Origin: a marine actinobacterium PHSC20C1 | GTDB taxonomy: Bacteria > Actinomycetota > Actinomycetes > Actinomycetales > Microbacteriaceae | Direction: 5' to 3' | Assembly (NCBI GenBank): GCA_000153145.1 | Contig: CH672415.1 | Span: 1,302,750-1,366,749 of the forward strand | DNA length: 64,000 nt | Shown: positions 45,037 through 57,826 of the stretch, one piece after another | Position numbering within the stretch: position 1 is the first letter of the stretch | Layout: every line of letters begins with the position of its first letter | Translations under genes and position numbers: made by a program | Notes under the pieces: model-generated | What the model saw: the letters and a program-made list of their open reading frames with translations, nothing else | Told to the model about the DNA's origin: nothing | Database searches by the model: none

Positions 45037-46047
45037 GTGTATACGCCAGTAGAATGGGTGCGAATACGCAACGATGCACGAGAGAGGGATGGACCAATAC
45101 CAAGTCCACGCAATCAAGCCATGCTTGTGAAAGCCGCCACTCTCTACTACCTCGACGGCAAGTCACAAGCCGAGGTCGCTCAAGAAATTGGCGTCTCGCG
45201 CTCCAACGTGTCGCGAGTGCTAGCCGATGCCCGCAAGAACGGCATCGTTGACATCCGCATCAACGACCCGTTCGGTCGGTCTCAAGACTTAGAAACTCAA
45301 CTCATTGCCCGCTACGGCCTGCGCGAGTGCCGAGTTGCTCCCAGCACCGGCGCAGACAATCAGTTGTCGCGCGTTGGCGCCCTCGGCGCCCAGTGGCTCA
45401 TCGACAACCTCCCGCGCGATGGCGGAGTTGCCCTCTCGTGGGGCTCAAGCGTGCAGGCCGTCGTTGACGAGATTCCCGATGACGCTTCTCACGAAAAAAT
45501 TGAAGTGCTACCTCTTGTTGGCGGACTGTCAATTGTCGACTCCGCCCGAGACGGCAACGTGCTCGTGCGCCTGCTGGCGACCAAGCTCGGGGCCCAACAC
45601 CGTCGCCTTTATGCTCCTGCCGTTGTCGAGTCGCGCGAATCTCGCGAAGCGTTCTTGCGTGAACCGTCCATTACGGGAGTGCTCAACGCCTCACGTCGCG
45701 CCAAGATTGCCATTGTCGGTGTGGGAAATGTCGGCGTCGGCGCGTCGGGCGCCATCATCGAATCAATGAACTTGAGCCGGAGCGAACGCTCAGAGTTCGC
45801 ATCATCCGGAGCAGTCGGTGACTGCTGCACGCGCTTTTTCGATCGGAACGGAAAGCCAGTTGAATCCGTCGTCAACGATCGAGTAATCGCTATCGACCTC
45901 GACGAACTCGGCAACATTCCCACTGTTGTAGGCGTCGCTGCTGGCGCCCACAAAATGGAGGGTACCCATGCCGCGCTCGCTGGTGGGCTATTCGACGTGC
46001 TCATCGTCGACTCTGAACTCGCACTGGCGCTACTCGCCCAGCGCTAG
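45037..46047 (+). CDS. SorC-family sugar-responsive regulator
   Basis: The protein has a helix-turn-helix (LVKAATLYYLDGKSQAEVAQEIGVSRSNVSRVLADARKNGIVDI) and a C-terminal sugar-phosphate binding domain of the SorC/CggR/DeoR-like group (VALSWGSSVQAVVDEI, EVLPLVGG, LLATKLGA, HKMEGTHAALAGGLFDVLIVD). The start is uncertain: GTG 45037 gives 336 residues and ATG 45121 would give 308. A TACAC-N8-GTGTA dyad before the gene may be its own site. It should sense a phosphorylated polyol and control the PTS island that follows. Confidence 0.88.
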   Translation: MYTPVEWVRIRNDARERDGPIPSPRNQAMLVKAATLYYLDGKSQAEVAQEIGVSRSNVSRVLADARKNGIVDIRINDPFGRSQDLETQLIARYGLRECRVAPSTGADNQLSRVGALGAQWLIDNLPRDGGVALSWGSSVQAVVDEIPDDASHEKIEVLPLVGGLSIVDSARDGNVLVRLLATKLGAQHRRLYAPAVVESRESREAFLREPSITGVLNASRRAKIAIVGVGNVGVGASGAIIESMNLSRSERSEFASSGAVGDCCTRFFDRNGKPVESVVNDRVIAIDLDELGNIPTVVGVAAGAHKMEGTHAALAGGLFDVLIVDSELALALLAQR

Positions 46048-46069
46048 CCCGCACACTCAGCACTGGGTC

Positions 46070-46113
46070 GGCTAGCTTCGTGAGCACGGCAGGCTGGCTT
46101 CGCAAGCGCAGCA
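46070..46113. repeat. Two imperfect 22-bp tandem repeats
   Basis: The units at 46070-46091 and 46092-46113 both follow GGCTrGCTTCGyrAGCrCrGCA and each contains a small GCTT..AAGC-like hairpin. They lie between the convergent SorC and IIA genes and could help to end transcription. Confidence 0.7.
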
Positions 46114-46135
46114 GGCGCGGTGGTGGCCAGAACTA

Positions 46136-46624
46136 TTAGCTCGTCGAAGCGAGCAGTTCTGCGAACGTGGCGGCCAACACTTCCGGGGTTTTCGCAGTAC
46201 TCAACTTTTCGTACCAGCCGTCGAGTTGAAACACAGCAATGAGTTGCGTAAGCATTTCAGTTTGAGCGTGTGGTTCGGTCACCAGGATGAGCACGGCGAC
46301 TTGTGCTGCAACCGTCGAGTCAGCTCCACCCATTTCTCCAAACGCGACTGGTGTGGCCAGCATTGCGATACCAAGTCCAGATTCAATCGCATGCTCAACA
46401 TCCGCGTGCGGAATGGCGACGGGGATGACGGTAGGCAGCCCTGTCGGATAGGCCAGTTCGCGCGCCAGTAGTGCGGCCTTGTAGCTGGGATGGACCGCAC
46501 CAACTTCGAGCGCCCGAGCCGCAAACGCAGAGAGCACGCTGGAGCTGTCTGCCGCCTCCAACCCAACGAAACTGAGATCTGCGCGGGGAACCACTGCGGT
46601 TTCTGGGTTGTCTGCTTCGCTCAT
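46136..46624 (-). CDS. PTS EIIA, galactitol/fructose type
   Basis: The 162-residue protein is an EIIA of the PTS_EIIA_2 fold. The phosphorylated His73 is in IPVAIPHADVEHAI, with HPSYKAALLARE and ILVTEPHAQTEMLTQLIAVF around it. It receives phosphate from HPr and gives it to EIIB. It is transcribed divergently from the IIB-IIC pair, and the 129 bases between them contain operator-like motifs. Confidence 0.9.
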   Translation of the reverse strand: MSEADNPETAVVPRADLSFVGLEAADSSSVLSAFAARALEVGAVHPSYKAALLARELAYPTGLPTVIPVAIPHADVEHAIESGLGIAMLATPVAFGEMGGADSTVAAQVAVLILVTEPHAQTEMLTQLIAVFQLDGWYEKLSTAKTPEVLAATFAELLASTS

Positions 46625-46680
46625 GAATCCTCACTCTGCACCGACTGCCATGTCGGCGATAGTCAAAAATGGAACTTCTT

Positions 46681-46717
46681 TTACACATTTGTACACCAAA
46701 GGTGCATAATTGTGACA
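46681..46717. promoter_or_regulatory. Candidate SorC operators between IIA and IIB genes
   Basis: TTACACATTTGTACACC (46681-46697) and TGCATAATTGTGACA (46703-46717) resemble each other and the motif TTGCACATTTGTGAGCA in front of the srlA-like gene. Both divergent promoters must lie here, so a regulator bound at these sites could act on the whole galactitol-type PTS. Confidence 0.55.
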
Positions 46718-46753
46718 AAGCCACTGCCCCGCGAATACATTGGAGTATCGATA

Positions 46754-47035
46754 ATGGCCACACAACGCATCCTCGTAATCTGCGGCACTGGAGTCGCAAC
46801 CTCGACCGTGGTCGTAACGAAAATTCGAGCCTTCTGCGAATCCAAAGGACTCGACGCGAAAATCTCGCAGGGCAAAGTAACTGACACTCTGCGCGGCAAC
46901 CTCGACGCAGACTTCATCGTCGCCACTACCCAAGTGCCCGACTCCGTTGGTATCCCCGTCATCGCCGGCCTCCCCTTCCTCACCGGAATGGGACTCGACA
47001 AGGTGTATGCCGAAATCGAGAAGCAGTTCGAATAA
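46754..47035 (+). CDS. PTS EIIB, galactitol type
   Basis: The 93-residue protein has the phosphocysteine loop VICGTGVATSTVV with Cys10 near the N-terminus and the rest of the small IIB fold (DFIVATTQVPDSVGIPVIAGLPFLTG). It passes phosphate from EIIA to the substrate moved by EIIC. GGAG lies nine bases before ATG 46754; the long frame upstream is a shadow of the IIA gene. Confidence 0.92.
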   Translation: MATQRILVICGTGVATSTVVVTKIRAFCESKGLDAKISQGKVTDTLRGNLDADFIVATTQVPDSVGIPVIAGLPFLTGMGLDKVYAEIEKQFE

Positions 47036-47111
47036 CGAACTCACTCGCACCACGAATCAATCGAACCTCACCAGCACCACTCAACTCACATAGAGAATTG
47101 GACGTTCAGCG

Positions 47112-48548
47112 TTGAACATAATTGAAGATATTTTGACAAATATCACTGGCTACCTCACGGCTCTCGGAGCCGCCGTCACCCTGCCGATCCTCATCACCAT
47201 CTTCGGCATGATCCTTGGTCAAAAGTTCAGCCAGGCACTGCGTGCTGGTGTACTCATCGGCATCGGGTTTATTGGAATCAACCTCGTGATTGGCCTCATG
47301 GCCTCCACAGTTGGTCCAGCAGCCCAAGCTCTTGCCGTGAACCTCGGCGTGAACCTCACAGTGCTCGATGTCGGCTGGCCCGCGAGTGCGGCCATCGCCT
47401 TCGGGTCAACAATCGGGGCGGTGATTATTCCGGTCGGCATCCTCGTGAACATGTTGCTGCTGTGGTCGGGCTTGACTCGCACGTTCAACATCGACCTCTG
47501 GAATTTCTGGCACTTCGCCCTCGTTGGGGCTCTCGTTGGCGCAGTAACCGACAACTTCTGGATCGGCATCGCCGCAGCAGCAGTGCACATGGTGATCGTT
47601 TTGGCTCTTGCAGACCTCTCAGCGCCGTGGATTCAAAAGTACTTCAACTTCCCTGACATCTCGTTCCCCCACGGCACCAGCGCCCCGTACATCGCGTTCG
47701 CGGTTCCCCTGCAGTGGCTCTTCGACCGCATCCCTGGTTTCCGCAACCTCAAGGCCGACCCCCAGACCATCGAGAAGCGCTTTGGTGTATTCGGTGAGTC
47801 GATGATTCTTGGTCTTGTCCTGGGAATCATCATTGGGTTGGCCGGCTTCGGCTTCGACGACCCACGTGCAGACTCGATCGCGATCCTTGTACTCGCCATC
47901 AGTCTTGCTGCGGTTCTTCTGCTCCTGCCACGCATGGTGTCGATCCTTATGGAAGGCCTTATTCCGGTCTCTGACTCCGCTCGTGAGTTTGTTCAGAAGC
48001 GCTTCCCTGGCCGTAAGTTCTACATCGGTCTCGACACAGCAATCGCCGTAGGCCAGCCCGCTGTGCTCGCGACGTCGCTCGTGCTTGTTCCCGTCACAGT
48101 GCTCATCGCTATCGCGCTTGCTCCGGCTGGAAACCAAGTGCTCCCGCTCGTTGACCTCGCAACCCTGCCGTTCATTGTCGCCATGATGGTTCCGATTTTC
48201 CGTGGAAACATCGTGCGCTCTGTGATTGGTGGCGCCATTGTGATTGGGATCGGCCTGTTCATCGCTACGGCAACGGCACCACAGTTCACCGCCATTGCCG
48301 AAGCTTCGGGATTCAGCGACACACAGGGCTCGCAGCTCATCTCGTCGCTCGTCGACGGCGCTAACCCGCTAACCGGCCTGTTCTTCGGGGTTGCCAACCT
48401 CGGCGGCTGGACTATCGGCGTACTGGGCGTCCTTGCCCTCGGATTCGCCTACTGGGTGAGCCGCCTCGAGAAGAAGCGCGACATTGTGCGCGCTCAAATC
48501 GAAGCGGATGCCGCAGCAGCATCCGAAGAAGAAGCAGCCAAGGCCTAA
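47112..48548 (+). CDS. PTS EIIC, galactitol type
   Basis: The 478-residue protein has ten or more membrane helices and the GatC pattern (ITIFGMILGQKFSQALRAGVLIGIGFIGINLVIGLM, FPHGTSAPYIAFAVPLQWLFDRI, RKFYIGLDTAIAVGQPAVLATSLVLVPV). The Ala/Glu-rich tail is cytoplasmic. The start is TTG 47112 (no ATG fits). GatC-type IIC proteins carry galactitol, D-arabitol and related polyols; the actual substrate is not known. A strong terminator follows the gene. Confidence 0.92.
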   Translation: MNIIEDILTNITGYLTALGAAVTLPILITIFGMILGQKFSQALRAGVLIGIGFIGINLVIGLMASTVGPAAQALAVNLGVNLTVLDVGWPASAAIAFGSTIGAVIIPVGILVNMLLLWSGLTRTFNIDLWNFWHFALVGALVGAVTDNFWIGIAAAAVHMVIVLALADLSAPWIQKYFNFPDISFPHGTSAPYIAFAVPLQWLFDRIPGFRNLKADPQTIEKRFGVFGESMILGLVLGIIIGLAGFGFDDPRADSIAILVLAISLAAVLLLLPRMVSILMEGLIPVSDSAREFVQKRFPGRKFYIGLDTAIAVGQPAVLATSLVLVPVTVLIAIALAPAGNQVLPLVDLATLPFIVAMMVPIFRGNIVRSVIGGAIVIGIGLFIATATAPQFTAIAEASGFSDTQGSQLISSLVDGANPLTGLFFGVANLGGWTIGVLGVLALGFAYWVSRLEKKRDIVRAQIEADAAAASEEEAAKA

Positions 48549-48568
48549 TCGCCTCTGGTCTCGCAACC

Positions 48569-48604
48569 AAAAGCCCCACTCCGCCAGAACGGAGTGGGGC
48601 TTTT
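48569..48604 (+). terminator. Intrinsic terminator after IIC gene
   Basis: AAAAGCCCCACTCCG and CGGAGTGGGGCTTTT pair perfectly around CCAGAA; TTTT closes the right arm. It may act on both strands. Confidence 0.9.
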
Positions 48605-48640
48605 GTGCGTGAAAAAGAGTGTGGCTTTTGTGAGTAAAAA

Positions 48641-48669
48641 AAGGGCCGCACCGAAGTGGTGCGGCCCTT
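48641..48669 (-). terminator. Intrinsic terminator of the HPr gene / catabolic operon
   Basis: On the minus strand AAGGGCCGCACC and GGTGCGGCCCTT pair around a five-base loop and are followed by TTTTT. It ends the long operon 14 bases after the HPr stop. Confidence 0.92.
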
Positions 48670-48682
48670 GAGTCTCAATCGA

Positions 48683-48940
48683 TTATTCGACGGTGGCGAG
48701 CAGTTCCACGAGTTCGTCGAGCACGCTATCTGCACTCTCTTCGTCTGAAGCGAGCGTGACTGTCTCGCCCTGAGCAACGCCAAGAGAAATAACCGCGAGG
48801 ATGCTCGCTGCGTTGACAGCCTTGTCACCCTTCGCAACCGTGATCTTGAAACCACTCTTGCTAACCGCTTGCGTGAACAGCGCGGCCGGGCGGGCGTGAA
48901 GGCCCGAGGGAGAAACGATTGTTACTGTGCGTTCAGACAT
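48683..48940 (-). CDS. ptsH: PTS phosphocarrier HPr
   Basis: The 85-residue protein has the phosphorylated His15 in PSGLHARPAALF and a Ser46 in NAASILAVISLG. It moves phosphate from enzyme I to the EIIA proteins. It is the last gene of the minus-strand operon, 81 bases after the E2 gene with a small hairpin between. No enzyme I gene is in the window. Confidence 0.95.
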   Translation of the reverse strand: MSERTVTIVSPSGLHARPAALFTQAVSKSGFKITVAKGDKAVNAASILAVISLGVAQGETVTLASDEESADSVLDELVELLATVE

Positions 48941-48997
48941 GTTTTACCTGTTTCGAAACGTGGTGGATAGCGCCCAAACGGAGCGCATGTGGTGGTG

Positions 48998-49015
48998 AAC
49001 CCGCGACTGCGGGTT
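48998..49015 (-). other. Small hairpin between E2 and HPr genes
   Basis: AACCCGC and GCGGGTT pair around GACT (48998-49015). It lies seven bases after the E2 stop without a U run, so it is more likely an RNA-stabilising or processing hairpin than a full terminator. Confidence 0.45.
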
Positions 49016-49021
49016 GCGGCA

Positions 49022-50299
49022 CTAGAGCAAGCGCTCCGGGGTCGCGACGAGGTTCGTGATGGTCGCAAGCATGCGCGCGGCATCCGCACCGTCAGCTACA
49101 CGGTGATCGACGGTGAGGCCGATCGTGCAGCTCAACCGCACACCAAAGGTTCCGTCATCAAACACACGCATGCGTGGTTTGACGGCTCCCGACGACAAAG
49201 CTGTCGACTGTGGTGGGGTCAACAGTGCGTTGAACGATTCCACACCGAACCCGCCCAAATTCGAGAATACGCTGGTTCCGCCTCCGAGTCGTGCCGGTGG
49301 CAGAGTGCCGTTGCGAGTTTCGTCTACGACAGTAGCAATTTCGGCGACAAGGTCTGCGAGAGTTCCCTCGTGCGAGTTCGTCAGCACCGGAGCAATAAGC
49401 CCCGATGGTGCGTCAATCGCGAGCGCAATTCCGATGTGCTCGTTGGCGGCGACTCCCTCATCAGTCCAGGTGCCATTGAGCGCAGCGTTCTCCGCCAGAG
49501 CGATCGCTTGAGCCCGCACTAGAAGTGCGGTCCAGCTTGCGCCGCCGAGCGTGGTTTTGCGCACGGCGGCCAGAGCTGACAGGTCAAGGTCAACGTAGGC
49601 GGTGAATTGGGGAACAAGAGCGGATGCGGACATCACCTTTGCGACTTGCTTGCGGGTACGTAGTCGGCGAGCTTCAACCGGATCCACAACCTTCGCTGGC
49701 GTCGGCGCTTGGGCAGCAGCTGGCGCTGCGACTGGTGCACTCGGTGCGGCTGGTGCACTCGGTGCACTCGCAGCGACGGGCGCCGCGGTGGGCGCGGTAG
49801 CGGCCGGAGCAGGAGCAGTTCCCGCTGCAGCAGCTTCGACATCCGATACGCGCACCGTATTGTCAGGACCGGTTGGTGTCACTGAAGACAGATCAACGTT
49901 GTGTTGTTCCGCGGCGCCGCGAGCGGCAGGAACCGAGGGAATCCAACCGGTTTCGATGGGTGCTGGAGGCGCGATGGGTGCAGCCTCAGCGGCAGTTGGC
50001 GCCGCGGCTGGTGCTTCATCGGTTGGTTCGTCGAAGAGTCCGCCGAGCAAGTCGTCGGCATCTGTCGTGATGAACGCAATCGTGTCGCCTACGGCGTAAA
50101 CGTCGTCTGGCTGGGCGATGATCCGGGCCAGAGTCCCATCAAATGGCGACTCCACCTCCATATCAACTTTGTCGGTTGCGACTTCACAAATCGGTTCGCC
50201 TGAGCGAACGGGGTCGCCGACGTTCTTGAGCCACGCGACCATGGTGCCCTCTTCCATGGTCATCGACATCTTGGGCATTGTCAGAGGCAGCTCGGCCAT
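49022..50299 (-). CDS. 2-oxo acid/acetoin dehydrogenase E2 (dihydrolipoyl acyltransferase)
   Basis: The 425-residue protein has one lipoyl domain (residues 1-80, lipoylated Lys44 in EVATDKVDMEVE), a subunit-binding domain (about 118-160, PSVPAARGAAEQHNVDLSSV), a long Ala/Pro linker and a catalytic domain whose last part carries the active His399 in VDHRVADG. It takes an acyl group from E1 and gives it to CoA. It begins one base after the E1beta gene. No E3 gene follows, so a dihydrolipoyl dehydrogenase from elsewhere must be used. Confidence 0.92.
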   Translation of the reverse strand: MAELPLTMPKMSMTMEEGTMVAWLKNVGDPVRSGEPICEVATDKVDMEVESPFDGTLARIIAQPDDVYAVGDTIAFITTDADDLLGGLFDEPTDEAPAAAPTAAEAAPIAPPAPIETGWIPSVPAARGAAEQHNVDLSSVTPTGPDNTVRVSDVEAAAAGTAPAPAATAPTAAPVAASAPSAPAAPSAPVAAPAAAQAPTPAKVVDPVEARRLRTRKQVAKVMSASALVPQFTAYVDLDLSALAAVRKTTLGGASWTALLVRAQAIALAENAALNGTWTDEGVAANEHIGIALAIDAPSGLIAPVLTNSHEGTLADLVAEIATVVDETRNGTLPPARLGGGTSVFSNLGGFGVESFNALLTPPQSTALSSGAVKPRMRVFDDGTFGVRLSCTIGLTVDHRVADGADAARMLATITNLVATPERLL

Positions 50300-50300
50300 G

Positions 50301-51341
50301 TCACCACTCCCGAACGAGATCAGTGGCGGCCTTCACAATGTCCTCAACCTGGGGAACCGATGCGCGCTCAAGCTTGGGCGCGTACGGGATAGGGATATCG
50401 AGGCCGGCGAGGCGTTTGATCGGCGCACGCAGGTAACCGAACGCATCCGATTCTGCGATGATCGCTGAGACTTCTGACATGAAGCCGAGCGTACGAACTG
50501 CTTCCTGAACTAGCAAGACCCTGCCGGTCTCTTTAACCGTACGAAGAATGGTGCCGCTGTCGAGCGGCTTGAGCGTGCGAGGGTCAACCACGGTTGCTTC
50601 AATTCCGTCAGCGGCGAGAATCTCTGCCGCTTCAAGTGCCCGGCTTACTTCGATGCCGGTCGCAATGATCGTGAGGTCTTTACCTTCACGCGGGACGGCG
50701 GCAACACCGAGAGGGGTGCGAATGTCGCCAACTCGAACGTCACCAGAGGTCTTGTAGAGCAGCTTGTGCTCGATAACCATGACCGGGTTGGGGTCGTCGA
50801 TTGCCGAAAGCAGCAGGCCCTTGGCATCATCCGCGGTCGCCGGCATAACAACCTTGAGTCCCGGGATGTGCACAAACCAGGCTTCGAGGCTCTGCGAGTG
50901 CTGCGCGGCAGCTCCCGTTCCTGAGCCACCGGGGGCGCGAATAACCATCGGTACATTCACGGCACCACCGAGCATGAAGTGAATCTTCGCTGCCTGGTTG
51001 GCGATTTGGTCCATTGCCTGAGCAGTGAAGTCAGAAAACTGGATCTCAACAATCGGACGCATGCCCGTCATCGCTGCGCCAACGCCGGCTCCCATGATGC
51101 CGAGCTCGCTGATGGTCGTGTCGCGAATGCGCTCGGGGCCAATCTCGTTAATCAGTTCACCGGTGACTCCGAAAGCTCCACCGTACGTTCCGACATCTTC
51201 ACCCATGATGAAGACGGCAGGGTCCTTAGCCATTGCGATGCGCATCGCATCGCGAATGGCTTCGGAGTAGGTCATTACTGCGGTCTCTGCCGATGCGGCA
51301 GGTGCCGCTGCGGACTGGGCCGCGGTCGTCTCAATAGTCAT
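50301..51341 (-). CDS. Thiamine-dependent dehydrogenase E1 beta subunit
   Basis: The 346-residue protein has the transketolase-type pyrimidine-binding start ([29 protein letters not shown]), the EIQFSDF segment, the [31 protein letters not shown] motif and the C-terminal domain. It resembles both PdhB and acetoin dehydrogenase AcoB. It forms the heterotetramer with E1alpha, whose gene ends five bases upstream. Confidence 0.92.
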
Positions 51342-51346
51342 AGTCG

Positions 51347-52330
51347 TTACCTTGCGTAGACGGCGGAAAGAAGGTCGTCAGCGGTGGCATCCGGCGCGGC
51401 GTTGGCGCGCTGGACAGCGCTGCGCAGCTCGGTGCGCACTTTGTCGCGAACGGCGTCGATGTCGGCCTGGGTCAGACCTCCCGCTGCGAGAGCCTGAGCT
51501 TCGAACAGCGGAATCGGGTCTTTGCCGCGCCACTCATCGATCTCGTCGCGCGTACGGTACAGGTTCTTGTCTGACTTCGAGTGACCGCGCCAGCGGTAGG
51601 TCTTGGCCTCAATGAAAGTGGGTCCCCCGCCATTGCGGGCACGGTCGACCGCTTCTTGCGTAGCGTCGTAGACAGCCTGAACGTCGTTACCGTCGACGGT
51701 GACGCCGGGGATGCCGTAGCCGCGCGCGCGGTCAGAGAGCTTTTCGAGGTTGAAGGCCTTCTCTGATGACATCGACATTCCATAGAGATTGTTCTCACAC
51801 AGGAACACAACGGGAAGCTGCCACATAGCCGCGAGCACTACGCCCTCGTGCCAGGCGCCTTCACCCATTGCTCCGTCGCCGTGGAAGCTGACGGCTACTT
51901 GCTTGGTGCCGCGCATCTTGGCTGAGAGAGCGGCGCCGGTTGCGATCGGAACTCCACCGGCAACAATGCCGTTCGCGCCGAGGTTTCCGGTTTCAGTATC
52001 CGCAATGTGCATCGACCCGCCGCGCCCACGGCAGTAGCCGGTTTCTTTGGCGAGGAGCTCGGCCATCATGCGCTCCATGTCTGCGCCCTTAGCAATGCAG
52101 TGGCCGTGACCGCGGTGCGTTGATGTGATGTAGTCATCTCGATTGAGTGCGAGGCACGCTCCCGTCGGTACGGCTTCTTGGCCGATAGAGAGGTGCATGG
52201 TGCCGTGCATGAGTCCGCGGCCGTAGAGGTCTTCCACTGCTTCTTCGAAGCGGCGGATCTTCCACATGGTTTCGAGACTGGATGCTGCGAGCTCAGGGTT
52301 CGCGGCGATAGGCGTATTGATGATGGTCAC
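51347..52330 (-). CDS. Thiamine-dependent dehydrogenase E1 alpha subunit
   Basis: The 327-residue protein binds thiamine diphosphate: [15 protein letters not shown] with a following ENN is the GDG-N27-NN motif. It also shows [14 protein letters not shown] and GGSMHIAD, which are typical of AcoA and related E1alpha chains, and the phosphorylation-loop-like RWRGHSKSD. It should attack a ketone next to a hydroxyl or carboxyl group. Sequence alone does not separate pyruvate from acetoin-like substrates. It starts five bases after the DRL-like gene. Confidence 0.92.
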
Positions 52331-52335
52331 CTTTC

Positions 52336-53661
52336 TTAGACAGAGAGCAGTGCAGCGAGAGCGGGAACCTGCAACTGGCCGTCGGCCAGCAGCGCATCCT
52401 GCAACTTGCGCAAAATCACGATGGTTTTAGTTTCGTCAAGCTGGACATCGTCGTACGTGATGGCCGTGCCTTGAGCGACATCACGGATGAGAGTTCCTGC
52501 CGAAGCCAAACCGATCGGCAGTTCTCGACCGGCCTTCGCTTCTGCAGCCGGGACCGCGTCACCGTAGACGTGCTCGCCGCCGATGCCGTCAATCTTTTCG
52601 CCGGCCTTGAGGTCGCGCTTCGCCATTGCCGATACATCGGCGTTCCAGGCAACAGGAGCGAGCGAAGGCTGGCGATCAATCATGACTTCACCGATCGAAA
52701 GCACTGCTTCGACGCTGGCGAGGTGATACGGGCGGTAGAAGGCGAAGTAGGGGCCTTCGCCGAGCTTGAGGTAGCTGAGCTCCTCATGAACTACGGGGTC
52801 AGTCGCCTTGGCCACAACGAAAACTCCGGGAGCGACCGGGCCGGTGGCGTAGTCAACAACACCGCTGCGGTCGAGGATGCCGCCGTCTTCGATGGGCTTG
52901 AAGATGTCCTGAAGCGTGGGAACGGTTGCAGCCGGTCCGTGCATCGAACGCTTCGTGAGCTCAAGGTCTGCCGCGTTTGCGAGGGCAGCCATTTCAATCA
53001 TTGTCTTGGTGCCGTCGACAAAGCTGCACAGCATCCGCGGGTTCATGCCCTTGATCTTTGCTTCGGCTTCGAGAGAGCTTGGGGTCGCCGTCTGGTTGAG
53101 CGGGTTGTTTTTGCCCTTGCCAGCCAGAACAACATCGAGACCGATGTCTTCTACGTATTCAACAAGCTTGAGGCACTCAACGGGTTCGTCACCGCGGCAC
53201 ACCGTGTAAATGTTGCCGGTTTGCGCAGCGATGCGTGCGAGCAGGAGCCCTACGGTTACGTCTGCTTCGACGGTCATGAGTGCGACGTCTTTGCCGCCGA
53301 GGAGTGAGGCGAGCGCAACCTTCGCTGCTATCTCGGGTACACCTGAGCACTCGATAACCATGTCGATGGGGAGTCGTGGCAGCGCGAGGGCATCGTTGAC
53401 GACGACGTGTCCGCCAGCTTCAATCGTGGCGGTGAGAGTCTCGAGGTCTCCTGACTGGTCAACGTCCGTGATTCCGGCATTGGCCAAGGCGCTTACCGCA
53501 CGGTCGATCGCGATGTCGGCTACCGCGGTGATGTCGACGCCCTTTTGGCGGGCAATTTGGGCGATGAAGCCTGACCCCATCTGTCCTGCTCCGACGAGTC
53601 CGATGCGCACTGGGCGACCGACCTCACGCTGACGGGCGAGCAGTTTGTTTGTGTAACCCAT
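52336..53661 (-). CDS. DXR-like (DRL, COG4091) oxidoreductase with SAF domain
   Basis: The 441-residue protein has an N-terminal Rossmann fold (GLVGAGQMGSG, residues 21-31), a central catalytic part (VEADVTVG 131-138, GDEPVECLKL, AGKGKNNPLN 180-189, HGPAATVPTLQ, GPYFAFYRPYHLAS) and a C-terminal SAF-like domain (about 345-425). Length and motifs agree with my memory of the Brucella DRL enzyme, which makes 2-C-methyl-D-erythritol 4-phosphate from 1-deoxyxylulose 5-phosphate with NADPH; older annotation says 'homoserine dehydrogenase-like'. Between polyol PTS and E1 genes it probably runs in the oxidative direction. It has its own operator-like dyad upstream. Confidence 0.85.
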   Translation of the reverse strand: MGYTNKLLARQREVGRPVRIGLVGAGQMGSGFIAQIARQKGVDITAVADIAIDRAVSALANAGITDVDQSGDLETLTATIEAGGHVVVNDALALPRLPIDMVIECSGVPEIAAKVALASLLGGKDVALMTVEADVTVGLLLARIAAQTGNIYTVCRGDEPVECLKLVEYVEDIGLDVVLAGKGKNNPLNQTATPSSLEAEAKIKGMNPRMLCSFVDGTKTMIEMAALANAADLELTKRSMHGPAATVPTLQDIFKPIEDGGILDRSGVVDYATGPVAPGVFVVAKATDPVVHEELSYLKLGEGPYFAFYRPYHLASVEAVLSIGEVMIDRQPSLAPVAWNADVSAMAKRDLKAGEKIDGIGGEHVYGDAVPAAEAKAGRELPIGLASAGTLIRDVAQGTAITYDDVQLDETKTIVILRKLQDALLADGQLQVPALAALLSV

Positions 53662-53685
53662 GACAACCCCTTTGTAACCACGTTA

Positions 53686-53700
53686 TTTGCACTTATGTGC
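53686..53700 (-). promoter_or_regulatory. Candidate SorC operator before the DRL-like gene
   Basis: TTTGCACTTATGTGC contains the dyad GCAC-TTAT-GTGC and resembles the motif before the srlA-like gene. It lies 25 bases before the DRL start. On the minus strand TTGATT lies upstream of it with CAAATA as a possible -10 box, so the dyad would cover the promoter. AAAGGGG stands before the ATG. Confidence 0.55.
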
Positions 53701-53789
53701 GCTTGTTAATCAAGTATGTGTATTTAGTATGCCCCGATAGGGACGACGATGCAACGCCGGATGCCGAAACACCCGAACCTGCCAGCTTC

Positions 53790-54191
53790 CTAGCCGCGTG
53801 GTGCGGCCGGCACGCTTCGCTTGTAGGTAACCCAGTACTGCTTGGTCGCGTAATCGACCGCTTCGGTCATCTTCTTCTCGCTCGTGCGCATAACGGCAGT
53901 GTCAAGATCGCCGAGCAGCTCAGGACGAGGCTTGAAGCGCGCGAGCACTGAACCACCCACCATGGCCTCTGCGGCCACGATGCGAGTTGTTGAGGCGTCG
54001 ACGACCATCAGAACGATGGCTCCGCGCAAGAATCCCTTGCCGCGACCAGAGACGAGAAAGTGGTCCTTGGCACCGAGAAAACCCAGGCCAATACGCTTAG
54101 TTGCGCGCGAGTACGTGCGCTGTTGAAAGAGACTGAATACAACGCTCAGTAGGAGCGCTCCAATCAGCAGTACGGCGAATCCGGTATCCAT
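53790..54191 (-). CDS. gutM: GutM-like protein (glucitol operon activator family)
   Basis: The 133-residue protein has one N-terminal membrane helix (about residues 4-22) and the GutM pattern QQRTYSRATKRIGLGFLGAKDHFLVSGRGKGFLRGAIVLMVVDASTTRIVAAEAM. In E. coli GutM activates the glucitol operon. It begins one base after the IIA gene stop and belongs to the glucitol-type PTS unit. Confidence 0.88.
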   Translation of the reverse strand: MDTGFAVLLIGALLLSVVFSLFQQRTYSRATKRIGLGFLGAKDHFLVSGRGKGFLRGAIVLMVVDASTTRIVAAEAMVGGSVLARFKPRPELLGDLDTAVMRTSEKKMTEAVDYATKQYWVTYKRSVPAAPRG

Positions 54192-54192
54192 G

Positions 54193-54567
54193 TCAATTGC
54201 CTTCGATGAGCTCGATGGTGACGCCTGCGTCTGGGAGCGTTAGCGATCCCTTTGCGTGGATGGCGCCAGGAAGAATCTTCTGACTGTCTTCTGGGTCGCT
54301 GTAGACCACGAAGTGGCCAAGCGTGCGGAGGTTGTGGCCAGCAAGTTCGCCGACCTCCGTAATGGTGACGACAGAGTCACCGACCCGCAGCACGTCTCCC
54401 GGTTGGGGATCGCGCTGCGGGTGGTGGTGCGATACAGCGTGAACAACACTTACCTCAGCCAACTCAGCGGGGCACGGTTCTCCAAAGAAAATCACGACTC
54501 CCCCGTCGAACATCTCAGTGGCGTCCGTTCCGATGGACGTTACTTCGCTGCGGTAATAAGTAGTCAT
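54193..54567 (-). CDS. srlB: PTS EIIA, glucitol/sorbitol type
   Basis: The 124-residue protein matches SrlB: it starts with YYRSEVTSIGTDATEMFDGGVVIFFGEPCPAEL, has His residues in VVHAVSHHHPQRDPQPGDVLRVG for phosphate transfer, and ends in LGHFVVYSDPEDSQKILPGAIHAKG and a short beta stretch. It receives phosphate from HPr and passes it to the IIB part of SrlE. It is tightly followed by gutM. Confidence 0.93.
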   Translation of the reverse strand: MTTYYRSEVTSIGTDATEMFDGGVVIFFGEPCPAELAEVSVVHAVSHHHPQRDPQPGDVLRVGDSVVTITEVGELAGHNLRTLGHFVVYSDPEDSQKILPGAIHAKGSLTLPDAGVTIELIEGN

Positions 54568-54612
54568 TGCTGTCTCGCTTTTCTCTGCTGTTACTAGTGG
54601 TGGACGTACTGG

Positions 54613-55665
54613 CTAGATCAGCGCGAAGCTTGCGCCCCACGCAATCAAGACTGCCAGCGGCGAGGTGATAAGGCGAGAGAAGAGTACCGCGGGCACTCCC
54701 ACTGCAACCGTCTCAGGCTTTGCCTCTCCCAGGGCGAGACCAACCGGCACGAAGTCACAACCGACCTGACCGTCAATCGCGAACAGGGTCGGAAGTGCGT
54801 ACTGCACCGGTAGTGCGCCAGCAGCGATCTGCGTACCCATGAGTACACCGATCACCTGAGCGATTGCGGCACCTGGGCCGAGAATGGGCGAGAGGAACGG
54901 CAGTGCCGTAATCACACCCAACAGGATCAGGCCGAACGGGTTAGACGCCAGTGGTGTAACCCCTTGCGCAATGACTTCCGAAAGCCCTGAGTAGGTAACG
55001 AAACCAATCAGAAGGCTCACGTAGGCCATAAACGGCAGAATCGTCTGCAGCACGAGCTGGATTGTCTGCCGACCAGACGACAGCAGCGTGTTGATGATGT
55101 TTCCGATTACCGCACCGAATCGCGTCGCAACATTGGAGAAGAAACCAATGAATCCGCCACCGGTCGTGGTCTGCGCCGTGAAGTGCTGAACGTCGCTGCT
55201 ACCGAAGGCACCCTTGGGTGCTTCGCTTCCGATTGCCGCGCTTGATGCCGCCGCCGCTTCCGCAGCGTGCGTTGCGAATGCTGCTTCACCGACGATCTCG
55301 ACGTTGTCTGTGCCGACAGCAGAGACGAAGACGTCGTCAGTGATGTATTTCGCGAGAGGACCGGAGGGCTCTCCAGGGAACACATCGACCGTCATCATGC
55401 GCTTCTTGGGGTAGACACCGATTCGTGCAGTTCCGCCACAGTTGATTACTACGGCGACAACGCGCTCTTCAGCGATGCTGTTGGTGAACCCGTCGACCGC
55501 TTCAGCTCCAGTGAGTTCGGCGATGCGTGCAGCAACCGGGTGGATTCCGCCACCCGTAACCGAGAGAACTACGTTCTTTACTTCGGAGGCTTCGAGCATC
55601 AAGCCCTTGCCCCATCCGCCGTTGCCTGGCTTTACAAATACTTTGTTGTAGGTGTTCTCAGTCAT
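54613..55665 (-). CDS. srlE: PTS EIIB-C, glucitol/sorbitol type
   Basis: The 350-residue protein has an N-terminal IIB domain with the active Cys76 in VVINCGGTARIG, a linker around residues 140-170 and a C-terminal membrane part (about 180-350: IIGNIINTLLSSGRQTIQLVLQTILPFMAYVSLLIGF, GLILLGVITALPFLSPILGPGAAIAQVIGVLMG, IDGQVGCDFVPVGLALGEA). It forms the glucitol-type permease with SrlA. ATG 55665 directly follows the SrlA stop at 55668. Confidence 0.93.
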   Translation of the reverse strand: MTENTYNKVFVKPGNGGWGKGLMLEASEVKNVVLSVTGGGIHPVAARIAELTGAEAVDGFTNSIAEERVVAVVINCGGTARIGVYPKKRMMTVDVFPGEPSGPLAKYITDDVFVSAVGTDNVEIVGEAAFATHAAEAAAASSAAIGSEAPKGAFGSSDVQHFTAQTTTGGGFIGFFSNVATRFGAVIGNIINTLLSSGRQTIQLVLQTILPFMAYVSLLIGFVTYSGLSEVIAQGVTPLASNPFGLILLGVITALPFLSPILGPGAAIAQVIGVLMGTQIAAGALPVQYALPTLFAIDGQVGCDFVPVGLALGEAKPETVAVGVPAVLFSRLITSPLAVLIAWGASFALI

Positions 55666-55667
55666 GA

Positions 55668-56378
55668 TCACACCGTCCCTTCAGTGGCAACCGAGGATCC
55701 GGTTTTCTTGGTCTGCTTCGCCTCGATGAATCGCGCGCTTGCGCGGGCGAATTCGCGGTCATACTCGTCGAAGACTTCGGTGAGTCCCTGGCGACGGATA
55801 AGGAGGTTGGTGATCCATTCCGTGACGACTCCACGGATGAAGATCACGACGATGCCGGTTGTGAAGTAGAGCAGTGCAAGTAGCGGATACTTCTCGGGAG
55901 CGATCGCGAGCACACCAGCAGATACGCCAGCCCAGACGAAGATCTCGCCAGCGTTAGCGTGCGGGAAGAACGCGGTCACAGGGTGCACGAACGACACGGC
56001 CGAGTCGTAGAACGCCGGCTTCTGCCTCTCGGGCAGGTAGATGCCAAACGAGTACGCCATCGGGTTCGTGAGTACGATAACCGCGATTACTGGCATGAGC
56101 GTGTAGCGCGTGATTGCCCATCGTGCCGACCACTGCACGGCTCGAGTCATGCGCTCTTCGCCCACCCATGTGGTGATTGCGTACATGAACGTGAGCAGCA
56201 CGATCAGCGTGGGAAGGATGCCGGTTGCAAGCCCCATAAGCGCTTCGCCCGAAGCATTGAACAGACCGATGAAGTGCGTTGCACCCCAAGTGAGCGCCTG
56301 AATAATCGGGTTGTCGCTGGCGGGCACTGGCGGCGCATCTTCCGCCGCCCAAATTAATGTGTCCAGAACAGATTGCAT
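55668..56378 (-). CDS. srlA: PTS EIIC2, glucitol/sorbitol type
   Basis: The 236-residue protein is the SrlA membrane subunit: NASGEALMGLATGILPTLIVLLTFMYAITTWVGEERM, LMPVIAVIVLTNPMAYSFGIYLPE and FVHPVTAFFPHANAGEIFVWAGVSAGV. ATG 56378 is chosen, six bases after AAAGG; the longer frame lacks a site. It is the first gene of the minus-strand catabolic operon. The imported polyol could be glucitol or another alditol. Confidence 0.93.
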   Translation of the reverse strand: MQSVLDTLIWAAEDAPPVPASDNPIIQALTWGATHFIGLFNASGEALMGLATGILPTLIVLLTFMYAITTWVGEERMTRAVQWSARWAITRYTLMPVIAVIVLTNPMAYSFGIYLPERQKPAFYDSAVSFVHPVTAFFPHANAGEIFVWAGVSAGVLAIAPEKYPLLALLYFTTGIVVIFIRGVVTEWITNLLIRRQGLTEVFDEYDREFARASARFIEAKQTKKTGSSVATEGTV

Positions 56379-56472
56379 CTCACACCTTTCTCCAGCCGCA
56401 ACTTCGTTGTCGGCGCCTGTCAGGGCCTGTGGCTGTGACGGAGGTGTGTCACCATCGACCCTGTTGTTGCAT

Positions 56473-56508
56473 TTGCACATTTGTGAGCATTGGACTCACA
56501 CCCGTGTA
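56473..56508 (-). promoter_or_regulatory. Candidate SorC operators before the srlA-like gene
   Basis: TTGCACATTTGTGAGCA (56473-56489) and, a few bases on, TCACACCCGTGTAA (from 56496) are two dyad-like sites about one helical turn apart. They resemble the sites in front of the galactitol-type PTS and DRL-like genes and lie about 100 bases before the srlA-like start. Confidence 0.55.
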
Positions 56509-56620: not shown

Positions 56621-57826
56621 CTAATCGCTAGCGTGTGCCGCTTCGGCAACCGTACGCGCATGAACGAGAGCAGTTGCAATCGCTGCCATACCCTCGCCTC
56701 GTCCAGTGAAGCCGAGGGCGTCCGAGGTGGTGCCGGCAATACTGACCGAAGCCCCCAGGAGACCGGTCAAGAGCGACTCCGCCTCTACCCGACGGCGCGA
56801 CACCATCGGGTGATTACCAATAAGTTGAACCGAAACGTTGCCGACCTCAAAGCCTGCATCACGAATCAAGTGAAGTGTCTCGCGCAAAAACACGTCGCCG
56901 TGCGCGTCTTGGAACTTGGGATCACTCGTGCCAAAGACACTGCCGAGGTCGCCGAGCTTCGCCGCAGAAAGCATGGCATCGCAAATCGCATGCGAGACAA
57001 CATCGCCATCGCTGTGTCCGCGAAGTCCAACTTCGTCTGGCCAATACAGTCCTGCGAGCCACAGCGGCTTGGTCTCGTCGTACGCGTGCACATCTGTGCC
57101 CGTACCGACGCGGATGCCCGACGCCGCTGATGCGGTAAACAACTGCTCTGCTCTACGCAGCTCCCACGCCGTGGTGATCTTGAAAGCCAGATCATCTCCA
57201 GCGATCACTGAAACGGGGAATCCTGCAGCGGCAACGAGAGCAGAGTCGTCCGTGAATTCTTCTGTTGCGGATTCGTGAGCGGCAACGAGTTGCGCGCGAG
57301 GGAACCCTTGCGGCGTCTGAACAGCCATGAGAACAGAACGATCAACCGTCTCAACAACGAAACCTGCGTCATCCGTGCGCTTGATCGTGTCAGCAACGGG
57401 CAGTCCAGGCACAACGCCTGCGCCTGAGGAAAGAACTTCAGCCGCAACAGAATCGAAGACGACACTCGGAGTCAGTGGGCGCGCTGCGTCGTGCACGAGC
57501 ACGACCTCGACTGACGAATCGAGATACTTGAGAGCAGCAGCAACTGATTCCTGACGAGTCGATCCACCCAGAATGACCGTAGTGTCACGATCCCGCCCGC
57601 CCGGAACCGAGCGTGCAAGCTGCTTGGCGATCGGAATAAACGATGGCGGCACGGTGACAATTACTTGAGCTTGCTCATCCATCGCGAATACAGCTTCGAG
57701 TGCACGGCTGAGGGTTGGACGCCCCGCGAGGTGCACAAAAGCCTTCGGCTCGTTTCGCCCGAGGCGAGTACCGTTTCCTGCTCCAAGAACAATGACGGCA
57801 ACGCGGGGCTCATTAGTCGGGCTCAT
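56621..57826 (-). CDS. ispDF: Bifunctional IspD-IspF (MEP cytidylyltransferase / MECDP synthase)
   Basis: The 401-residue protein is a fusion. Residues 1-230 are IspD (VLGAGNGTRLGRNEPKAFVHLAG, VLVHDAARPL, AVQTPQGF). Residues 237-401 are IspF (GTGTDVHAYDE with the zinc Asp and His, LRGHSDGDVVSHAICDAML, LGDLGSVFGTSD). It takes 2-C-methyl-D-erythritol 4-phosphate to its CDP derivative and later closes the 2,4-cyclodiphosphate. IspE is separate. It follows carD by 110 bases, a usual order, but cysS no longer follows. Confidence 0.96.
   Translation of the reverse strand: MSPTNEPRVAVIVLGAGNGTRLGRNEPKAFVHLAGRPTLSRALEAVFAMDEQAQVIVTVPPSFIPIAKQLARSVPGGRDRDTTVILGGSTRQESVAAALKYLDSSVEVVLVHDAARPLTPSVVFDSVAAEVLSSGAGVVPGLPVADTIKRTDDAGFVVETVDRSVLMAVQTPQGFPRAQLVAAHESATEEFTDDSALVAAAGFPVSVIAGDDLAFKITTAWELRRAEQLFTASAASGIRVGTGTDVHAYDETKPLWLAGLYWPDEVGLRGHSDGDVVSHAICDAMLSAAKLGDLGSVFGTSDPKFQDAHGDVFLRETLHLIRDAGFEVGNVSVQLIGNHPMVSRRRVEAESLLTGLLGASVSIAGTTSDALGFTGRGEGMAAIATALVHARTVAEAAHASD

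Follow-up and report, generated by a model that had tools for sequence, protein, structure and literature searches.

A conserved operon linking a DXR-II-type oxidoreductase with polyol phosphotransferase and E1/E2 genes in Salinibacterium: a candidate route for the catabolism of 2-C-methyl-D-erythritol

In the 2-C-methyl-D-erythritol 4-phosphate (MEP) pathway of isoprenoid synthesis, to which DXS and DXR belong, 1-deoxy-D-xylulose 5-phosphate (DXP) and MEP are intermediates. Besides the canonical enzyme (DXR-I), a second type, DXR-II or DRL, is represented by the Brucella abortus protein (3upl; Carretero-Paulet 2013), and PMC3847144 presents DXR-II as a biosynthetic enzyme. That source also reports bacteria with DXR-II but neither the MEP nor the mevalonate (MVA) pathway, and in the sections consulted proposes no role for the enzyme in them. 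A 2026 review (PMC13001223) treats DXR-II as an alternative isoprenoid enzyme, the distribution of which is patternless beyond an overrepresentation in certain pathogens. Two further systems are relevant here, namely the glucitol/sorbitol phosphotransferase system (PTS) operon srlAEBD-gutM and the acetoin dehydrogenase AcoABC, whose E1alpha, E1beta and E2 subunits are in principle able to split an alpha-hydroxyketone with CoA. Relatives of all of these meet in one gene cluster between ispDF and cysS of the marine actinobacterium PHSC20C1, a Salinibacterium (Microbacteriaceae) with a single-contig genome of 2.77 Mb. The cluster lies in the 64-kb stretch of this genome analysed here, hereafter called the window.

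The window DRL resembles Brucella DXR-II in its clade, its fold family and its substrate-anchoring Lys191/Lys193/Thr229, but it is encoded in a PTS-E1-E2 operon of a genome that also has DXR-I, its cofactor fingerprint is NAD-type and not NADP-type, and it carries four changes from the consensus. Like the srl operon, the block has glucitol-type EIIA, EIIB and EIIC together with GutM, but it has no srlD-type dehydrogenase and adds SorC, DRL and E1/E2. Its E1/E2 genes recall AcoABC, but the block includes no E3 gene, and no acetoin or butanediol genes were found between ispDF and cysS. On the minus strand, the gene order is SrlA-SrlE-SrlB-GutM-DRL-E1alpha-E1beta-E2-HPr, followed by a terminator-like hairpin; beyond the end of HPr lie galactitol-type EIIB and EIIC on the plus strand, a divergent EIIA, and SorC on the plus strand (Table 1). 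A preliminary description of this DNA had listed a SorC regulator, two PTS, DRL, E1alpha-E1beta-E2 and HPr, arranged as one long minus-strand operon plus a divergent PTS unit. Domain matches locate all of these genes, coordinates and strands bear out the layout, and GutM beside the glucitol PTS is now added to the list. That description had also noted the lack of a usual polyol-phosphate dehydrogenase, an aldolase and a kinase; none of these, in the first case of the MDR/SDR type, was found between ispDF and cysS, and the block holds no MDR/SDR gene for a sorbitol-6-phosphate dehydrogenase.

On balance, we consider it probable that the operon, under the control of SorC, serves to break down 2-C-methyl-D-erythritol, or a methyl-branched tetritol very close to it, via MEP and DXP and an E1/E2 split. 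Methylerythritol is a plant product and an overflow product of the MEP pathway. The glucitol-type PTS would import it and phosphorylate it to the 4-phosphate, MEP, which DRL would oxidise with NAD+ to DXP. Thiamine diphosphate on E1alpha/E1beta/E2, working with a shared E3, would then add to the DXP ketone, the C2-C3 bond would be split, and the two-carbon unit would be passed to CoA, so that acetyl-CoA and glyceraldehyde 3-phosphate are formed. Another compound of this pathway, possibly 1-deoxyxylulose, probably enters through the galactitol-type PTS. Compared with the MEP pathway, the intermediates would be shared, but the direction would be reversed, with E1/E2 standing in for DXS. The parts of this proposal differ in strength: a catabolic role of the cluster is very likely, the conversion of MEP to DXP by DRL is likely for the family and a little less certain for the window clade, and the splitting of DXP by E1/E2 is probable. 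We infer the exact substrate in the window lineage, the direction and cofactor of the reaction, and the role of the second PTS. If true, the proposal would add methylerythritol as a carbon source, a DXR that runs in reverse with NAD, and E1/E2 complexes whose substrate is a sugar phosphate; no description of a methylerythritol catabolic pathway was found in the literature searched, which consisted mostly of papers available without subscription.

Catabolism over biosynthesis is strongly supported, because clusters occur in genomes without a detected MEP pathway and because of the NAD-type fingerprint of their DRLs. PF02670 detected DXR-I in 20 of the 41 genomes tested, three of them barely above the cut-off; IspG was found in 33 of 42. 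Both went undetected in nine genomes (G101, G104, G105, G108, G192, G224, G1001, G1033 and G1067), in which the best IspD matches reached 27 to 44 bits, compared with at least 131 in all other tested genomes except G319 and G379. As a marker of the MVA pathway, HMG-CoA synthase (PF08540) was uninformative (0/21 above cut-off), and HMG-CoA reductase was used instead; it is present in all nine genomes except G224, and in none of 11 MEP-pathway genomes tested. DRL together with E1 occurs in eight of the nine (the contig ends in G1067, and G108 was seen on a 3.4-kb contig only), seven of these eight having the reductase, and thus DRL cannot serve MEP-pathway synthesis there. In one of them, Terrimesophilobacter (G101) of the window's own family, the operon stands at the same address, CarD and ptsP being followed by the operon, SorC, cysS and rlmB; ispDF was not found at that address. 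The window genome itself has IspG and a canonical DXR, located outside the operon (G000:C1:206863), so that its host does not depend on the window DRL for MEP; the preliminary description had held that the lack of dxr elsewhere would make this DRL a biosynthetic enzyme.

The core of the gene set, which that description had suggested looking for elsewhere, was found in four phyla, in genomes with and without the MEP pathway. DRL and E1 genes recur in Actinomycetota, Chloroflexota, Alphaproteobacteria and on one Bacillota plasmid, including Cryobacterium, Terrimesophilobacter, Anaerolineales and the actinomycetotal families f25, f32, f34, f47 and f83, and they are plasmid-borne in Rhizobium (L038), Pseudoroseomonas (L133), Sinorhizobium meliloti (pRM41A, L042) and Priestia (L039). 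The closest relatives of the window DRL, at 97% identity, are Salinibacterium records, and a DRL of this type is present in 6 of 27 Salinibacterium genomes, the window's own counted. Of the 96 DRL-family sequences collected, a number that counts the window and Brucella, 24 were removed as near-duplicates or fragments, and in the resulting tree of 72 rows the window DRL falls with Brucella DRL in a DXR-II clade of 46 rows (support 90/91). The other two groups (100/99 and 100/100) are read as DLO1 and DLO2 from the tree and the residue pattern, no paper-named DLO sequence being included. In 31 of 45 DXR-II-clade loci (Brucella uncounted), DRL has E1 genes no more than 10 kb away, compared with 1/16 and 0/10 in the other groups, and SrlE is near DRL in 30/45, 0/16 and 0/10, respectively. 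The 14 clade loci without E1 comprise six from family f28, with small genomes, three ending within 4 kb of DRL, L032 (E2 and Srl at a contig end), L040 and L041 (Srl, no E1), and L067 and L124 (neither). Of the 31 non-redundant E1-linked loci, 27 have SorC near DRL and 27 show the full set of E1alpha, E1beta and E2. DRL and E1 distances correlate over 31 loci (r 0.93 and 0.90; 0/5000 permutations), which may partly reflect shared taxonomy.

Uptake genes are the variable part of the cluster. Both PTS types occur together in Actinomycetota, Chloroflexota and Alphaproteobacteria; in place of the PTS, S. meliloti L042 has an ABC transporter and a PfkB kinase, with extra lpdA and lipA, and Priestia L039 has an MFS transporter and an FGGY kinase, with extra lpdA. 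One genome (G160) has a PTS-type set and a second set with FGGY kinases, where a single open reading frame (ORF) of 757 residues bears E1beta. Since DRL-E1-E2, mostly with SorC, stays constant while the uptake genes vary, the variable part would be the route to a phosphorylated polyol. In a sample of Alphaproteobacteria (the class of G106), there were 2/385 matches at E <= 1e-75, with E1 seen near neither (one contig being 5 kb long); plasmid records were used instead, of which 103 had a match and 6, among the 60 matches listed, were examined. A DLO-type locus, L047 in G043, with a DRL of another family group, also has E1/E2 nearby; it was kept in the counts and possibly belongs to a related pathway for a different substrate.

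The window DRL has DRL_cat, NAD-binding and SAF domains (PF21135, PF03447 and PF08666), is 42% identical to Brucella DRL and keeps Lys191, Lys193, Thr229, His250 and Arg320 (Brucella numbering), of which K191, K193 and T229 anchor fosmidomycin. Cluster DRLs of Rhizobium and S. meliloti are much closer to Brucella DXR-II, at 74% and 72% identity. According to PMC3847144, the DXR-II activity of Chloroflexus aurantiacus J-10-fl was shown by complementation of dxr-deficient E. coli, and Chloroflexi representatives would use the MVA pathway alone; conversion of DXP to MEP is reported there for other DXR-II proteins as well. We take G1001 to be C. aurantiacus; of its three DRL-family proteins, the cluster DRL matches Brucella DXR-II far better (309 bits) than the others do (239 and 214) and is for this reason presumably the complementing DXR-II. 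With the gene so identified as cluster-borne, the reported complementation supports MEP/DXP chemistry for the enzyme group.

In a Rossmann fold, an Asp at the end of the second strand without a basic residue after it is the NAD-type pattern. All 44 cluster-linked DRLs, that is, those with E1, E2 or Srl genes near (three of the 44 without E1), combine Asp55 with a non-basic residue at 56, and the window DRL, with D55/I56, is predicted to be NAD-dependent. Arg or Lys at 56, as in Brucella, is found in 20 of 24 stand-alone DRLs; of the four exceptions, two come from f28 and two lie on truncated contigs. Both all-row counts contain near-duplicates, and one locus appears twice (L033, L117). Among non-redundant tree rows, the basic residue is present in 0/34 cluster-linked and 10/12 stand-alone DRLs, and in 12/13 stand-alone rows with at least 3 kb on both sides (8/8 non-redundant). 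The pathway of the preliminary description is thus upheld in part: its catabolic role by the MEP-less hosts and the fingerprint, and its MEP/DXP chemistry, at the level of the enzyme group, by the C. aurantiacus complementation; its other steps keep the conditional standing given above.

Window E1beta is 41-46% identical to two pyruvate dehydrogenase (PDH) and two acetoin dehydrogenase references, 51% to a Thermus protein and 53% to that of a Clostridioides difficile plasmid; against the cluster, identity is 54-62% for eight rows from other families and 51% for L077. Seven E1alpha residues (H42, T44, Y99, S186, K252, N256 and W267) are common to cluster rows and absent from five references (two acetoin dehydrogenases, L130 and L134, two PDH, and L047) under a relaxed rule that sets aside C. 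difficile, Thermus, two Haladaptatus rows and L077. Five of the seven are invariant in 33 cluster rows, K252 occurs in 97% and N256 in 88%. From both acetoin dehydrogenase references, which are adjoined by acetoin or butanediol genes, the cluster proteins are set apart at seven E1alpha and five E1beta positions; cluster E1s lie outside these two rows in the trees (except L077 E1beta), with weak support for the split. Of the three other E1alpha paralogues in the window genome, two were checked, and they have one and two of the seven residues. Aligned to the human E1alpha chain, T44 stands opposite chain residue 65 (Phe) and K252 beside chain Ser268, which would be active-site Phe61 and regulatory Ser264; the lysine at 252 could bind the DXP phosphate. 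According to PMC3424233, DXP is formed in E. coli by variants of PDH E1 and 1-deoxyxylulose by the purified PDH, so that the reverse cleavage is chemically reasonable. On the C. difficile plasmid (L128:5968-11888), SorC, E1alpha, E1beta, E2 and lpdA lie by an MFS transporter and glycoside hydrolases.

In several families, MEP-pathway relatives have an IspD gene within or next to the cluster, four of these genes being confirmed by Pfam; none was seen in f34 clusters or in clusters of genomes without the MEP pathway. A second IspD is present elsewhere in G124, G304, G176 (where the other match is an 85-bit part), G951, G942, G933, G1031 and G1176. This linkage points to MEP as a shared metabolite, and suggests that part of it may enter isoprenoids. 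Pfam IspD-type cytidylyltransferase genes by DRL clusters include L064:8873-9592, L109:13916-14842 and L032:5703-6488.

A wider and more tentative reading, which falls a little short of being probable, is that the DXR step is reversed with NAD+ and a thioclastic E1/E2 replaces DXS, DXR-II having been catabolic originally and recruited several times into isoprenoid synthesis with a switch from NAD to NADP (the Brucella lineage, f28 and G319). In six f28 genomes tested, IspG is present and DXR-I absent, and therefore f28 DRL is probably a biosynthetic DXR. The f28 loci (L081, L091, L092, L096, L097 and L100) belong to small-genome Actinomycetota and have a stand-alone, mostly NADP-type DRL. Such a catabolic origin, if true, would account for the scattered distribution of DXR-II, which extends to genomes with DXR-I or without the MEP pathway, for its presence in bacteria that have neither the MEP nor the MVA pathway, and for the apparently superfluous second isoprenoid enzyme of many bacteria. 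In one genus with no DXR-I detected, clustered DRLs with Asp-Val (G169 L066 and G131 L070) occur as well as a lone one with Asp-Arg (G319 L067), a contrast that amounts to a natural test of how DRL was recruited for isoprenoid synthesis.

The same logic might apply to another branched polyol, in which case the substrate of the window-lineage DRL would be apiitol, 2-C-methylthreitol or the like, and the resulting ketose phosphate would be split by E1/E2, into glycolyl-CoA and glyceraldehyde 3-phosphate in the case of xylulose 5-phosphate. The substitutions of the window clade at 121, 174, 178 and 351 would fit such a substrate, as would the Ligilactobacillus salivarius locus with fsa and tkt, but we regard it as unlikely, given that K191, K193, T229 and H250 are retained in the window DRL, that proven DXR-II enzymes have close relatives among the clustered DRLs of other lineages, that the IspD linkage indicates MEP, and that xylulose 5-phosphate would need no E1/E2. 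Exogenous methylerythritol could also be salvaged for isoprenoids, MEP passing to CDP-methylerythritol via IspD, and not burned; ispDF adjoins the operon, and the eight relatives with a cluster IspD that have another IspD too would agree with this. Salvage requires neither DRL nor E1/E2, however, and the eight genomes with DRL and E1 but no detected MEP pathway speak against it, which makes it quite improbable as an explanation of the operon, although it may be a side use.

The families of both PTS are named after sorbitol and galactitol, and an ordinary operon for these alditols, with DRL as the polyol-phosphate dehydrogenase and E1/E2 serving pyruvate, would be the conventional assignment. 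We hold it to be very unlikely, since DXR-II chemistry is more than that of a simple dehydrogenase, kinase systems can replace the PTS while DRL-E1-E2 stays, and the E1 residues are unlike those of the two PDH references. It is scarcely credible, finally, that DRL is a redundant biosynthetic DXR with a sorbitol PTS and a pyruvate/acetoin dehydrogenase as chance neighbours: the biosynthetic role given for DXR-II in PMC3847144 and DXR-II-clade relatives without any cluster (f28, L067 and L124) speak for it, but the association is kept across four phyla, conservation in MEP-less genomes contradicts it, the window genome has a canonical DXR, and the fingerprint is NAD-type.

Several observations weigh against the catabolism of methylerythritol by this operon. 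The window clade departs from the DXR-II consensus at G121A, E174K, F178Y and V351N. With part of the DRL candidates scored, no DXR candidate other than the NAD-type cluster DRL turned up in G169 and G131, which are MEP-pathway genomes. The association between cofactor type and linkage, counted on independent tree pairs, is 2-3 to 0 and not significant, and of the 24 stand-alone rows, 11 are either flanked by less than 3 kb on one side or, in the case of Brucella, have a context that was not examined. As for E1, a strict rule demanding absence from all nine references leaves no cluster-specific residue; L077, which has DRL, shares only 5 of the seven E1alpha residues and was omitted from the residue count, the C. 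difficile plasmid E1, without an adjoining DRL, shares 6 of them, and a single cluster-E1 clade is not established by the trees (E1alpha support 34/84; E1beta p-AU 0.40). Furthermore, relatives in Listeria and L. salivarius have DRL and the Srl PTS without E1/E2, and the product may be used otherwise there. The Listeria innocua locus (L040:7796-12610) comprises SorC, DRL, GutM and the Srl PTS; on the L. salivarius plasmid (L041:9001-16575), DRL, the Srl PTS and GutM are followed by fructose-6-phosphate aldolase (fsa) and transketolase (tkt), perhaps another way to break the DRL product.

Table 1. Features of the gene block and its upstream neighbour, in window coordinates.
Feature	Position	Strand	Evidence
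SorC-family sugar-binding transcriptional regulator	45037..46047	+	PF04198 E 1.3e-64
PTS EIIA, galactitol-type unit	46136..46624	-	PF00359 E 6.5e-20
Operator-like palindrome TTTRCACWTWTGTRNRC, EIIA/EIIB divergent promoter region	46680..46696	+	exact match
Galactitol-type PTS EIIB	46754..47035	+	PF02302 E 5e-12 (match on longer ORF 46490-47035)
Galactitol-type PTS EIIC	47112..48548	+	PF03611 E 3e-82
Terminator-like hairpin, end of minus-strand operon, after HPr	48641..48669	-	12 pairs, 9 GC, T run
HPr	48683..48940	-	PF00381 E 3e-25
E2, lipoyl acyltransferase	49022..50299	-	PF00198, PF00364, PF02817
E1beta	50301..51341	-	PF02779 + PF02780
E1alpha	51347..52330	-	PF00676 E 5.5e-89
DRL (DXR-II clade oxidoreductase), predicted NAD-type	52336..53661	-	PF21135 E 4e-63; Brucella 3upl E 1.1e-100
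Operator-like palindrome TTTRCACWTWTGTRNRC, upstream of DRL	53686..53702	+	exact match
GutM	53790..54191	-	PF06923 E 1e-10
Glucitol-type PTS EIIA (SrlB)	54193..54567	-	TIGR00849 61 bits, under cut-off 189.55
Glucitol-type PTS EIIB (SrlE)	54613..55671	-	NF049924 420 bits, cut-off 400
Glucitol-type PTS EIIC (SrlA)	55668..56480	-	NF049923 180 bits, cut-off 150
Operator-like palindrome TTTRCACWTWTGTRNRC, upstream of SrlA	56472..56488	+	exact match
IspDF fusion, MEP-pathway gene, upstream neighbour in the operon's orientation	56621..57826	-	TIGR00453 + TIGR00151 above cut-off

The palindrome TTTRCACWTWTGTRNRC, allowing up to two mismatches, has 4 matches in the window compared with a shuffle mean of 0.32, an enrichment that is partly circular, as the pattern was derived by eye from its three window sites; a search for shared intergenic 14-mers as operators had returned only local repeats before the pattern was read in this way. 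For that reason, recurrence across loci is better evidence than the window count. At the same tolerance, the palindrome stands at the same three places in all four other Salinibacterium loci scanned, with 1-2 mismatches at the EIIA/EIIB site, 0-2 at the DRL site and 0-1 at the SrlA site, and Terrimesophilobacter keeps it at two of the three. It was not found in three of four Cryobacterium loci (the fourth has one site) or in a Nocardioides metagenome-assembled genome. SorC may bind this palindrome, and we propose that the three units bearing it form one regulon. For SrlA, a start at 56378 is more likely than the one at 56480. Terminator-like hairpins number 11 across the region, compared with 11.4 in shuffles, i.e., no excess.

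Proteins of unknown function recur by the alphaproteobacterial clusters (L038:12742-14224, L042:15232-16686 and L133:7237-7887), HypA and HypB of L038 giving no Pfam match. In G160, the PTS-type and kinase-type sets (L079 and L080) contain two nearly identical copies of DRL and E1beta, which suggests a recent duplication with exchange of uptake genes.

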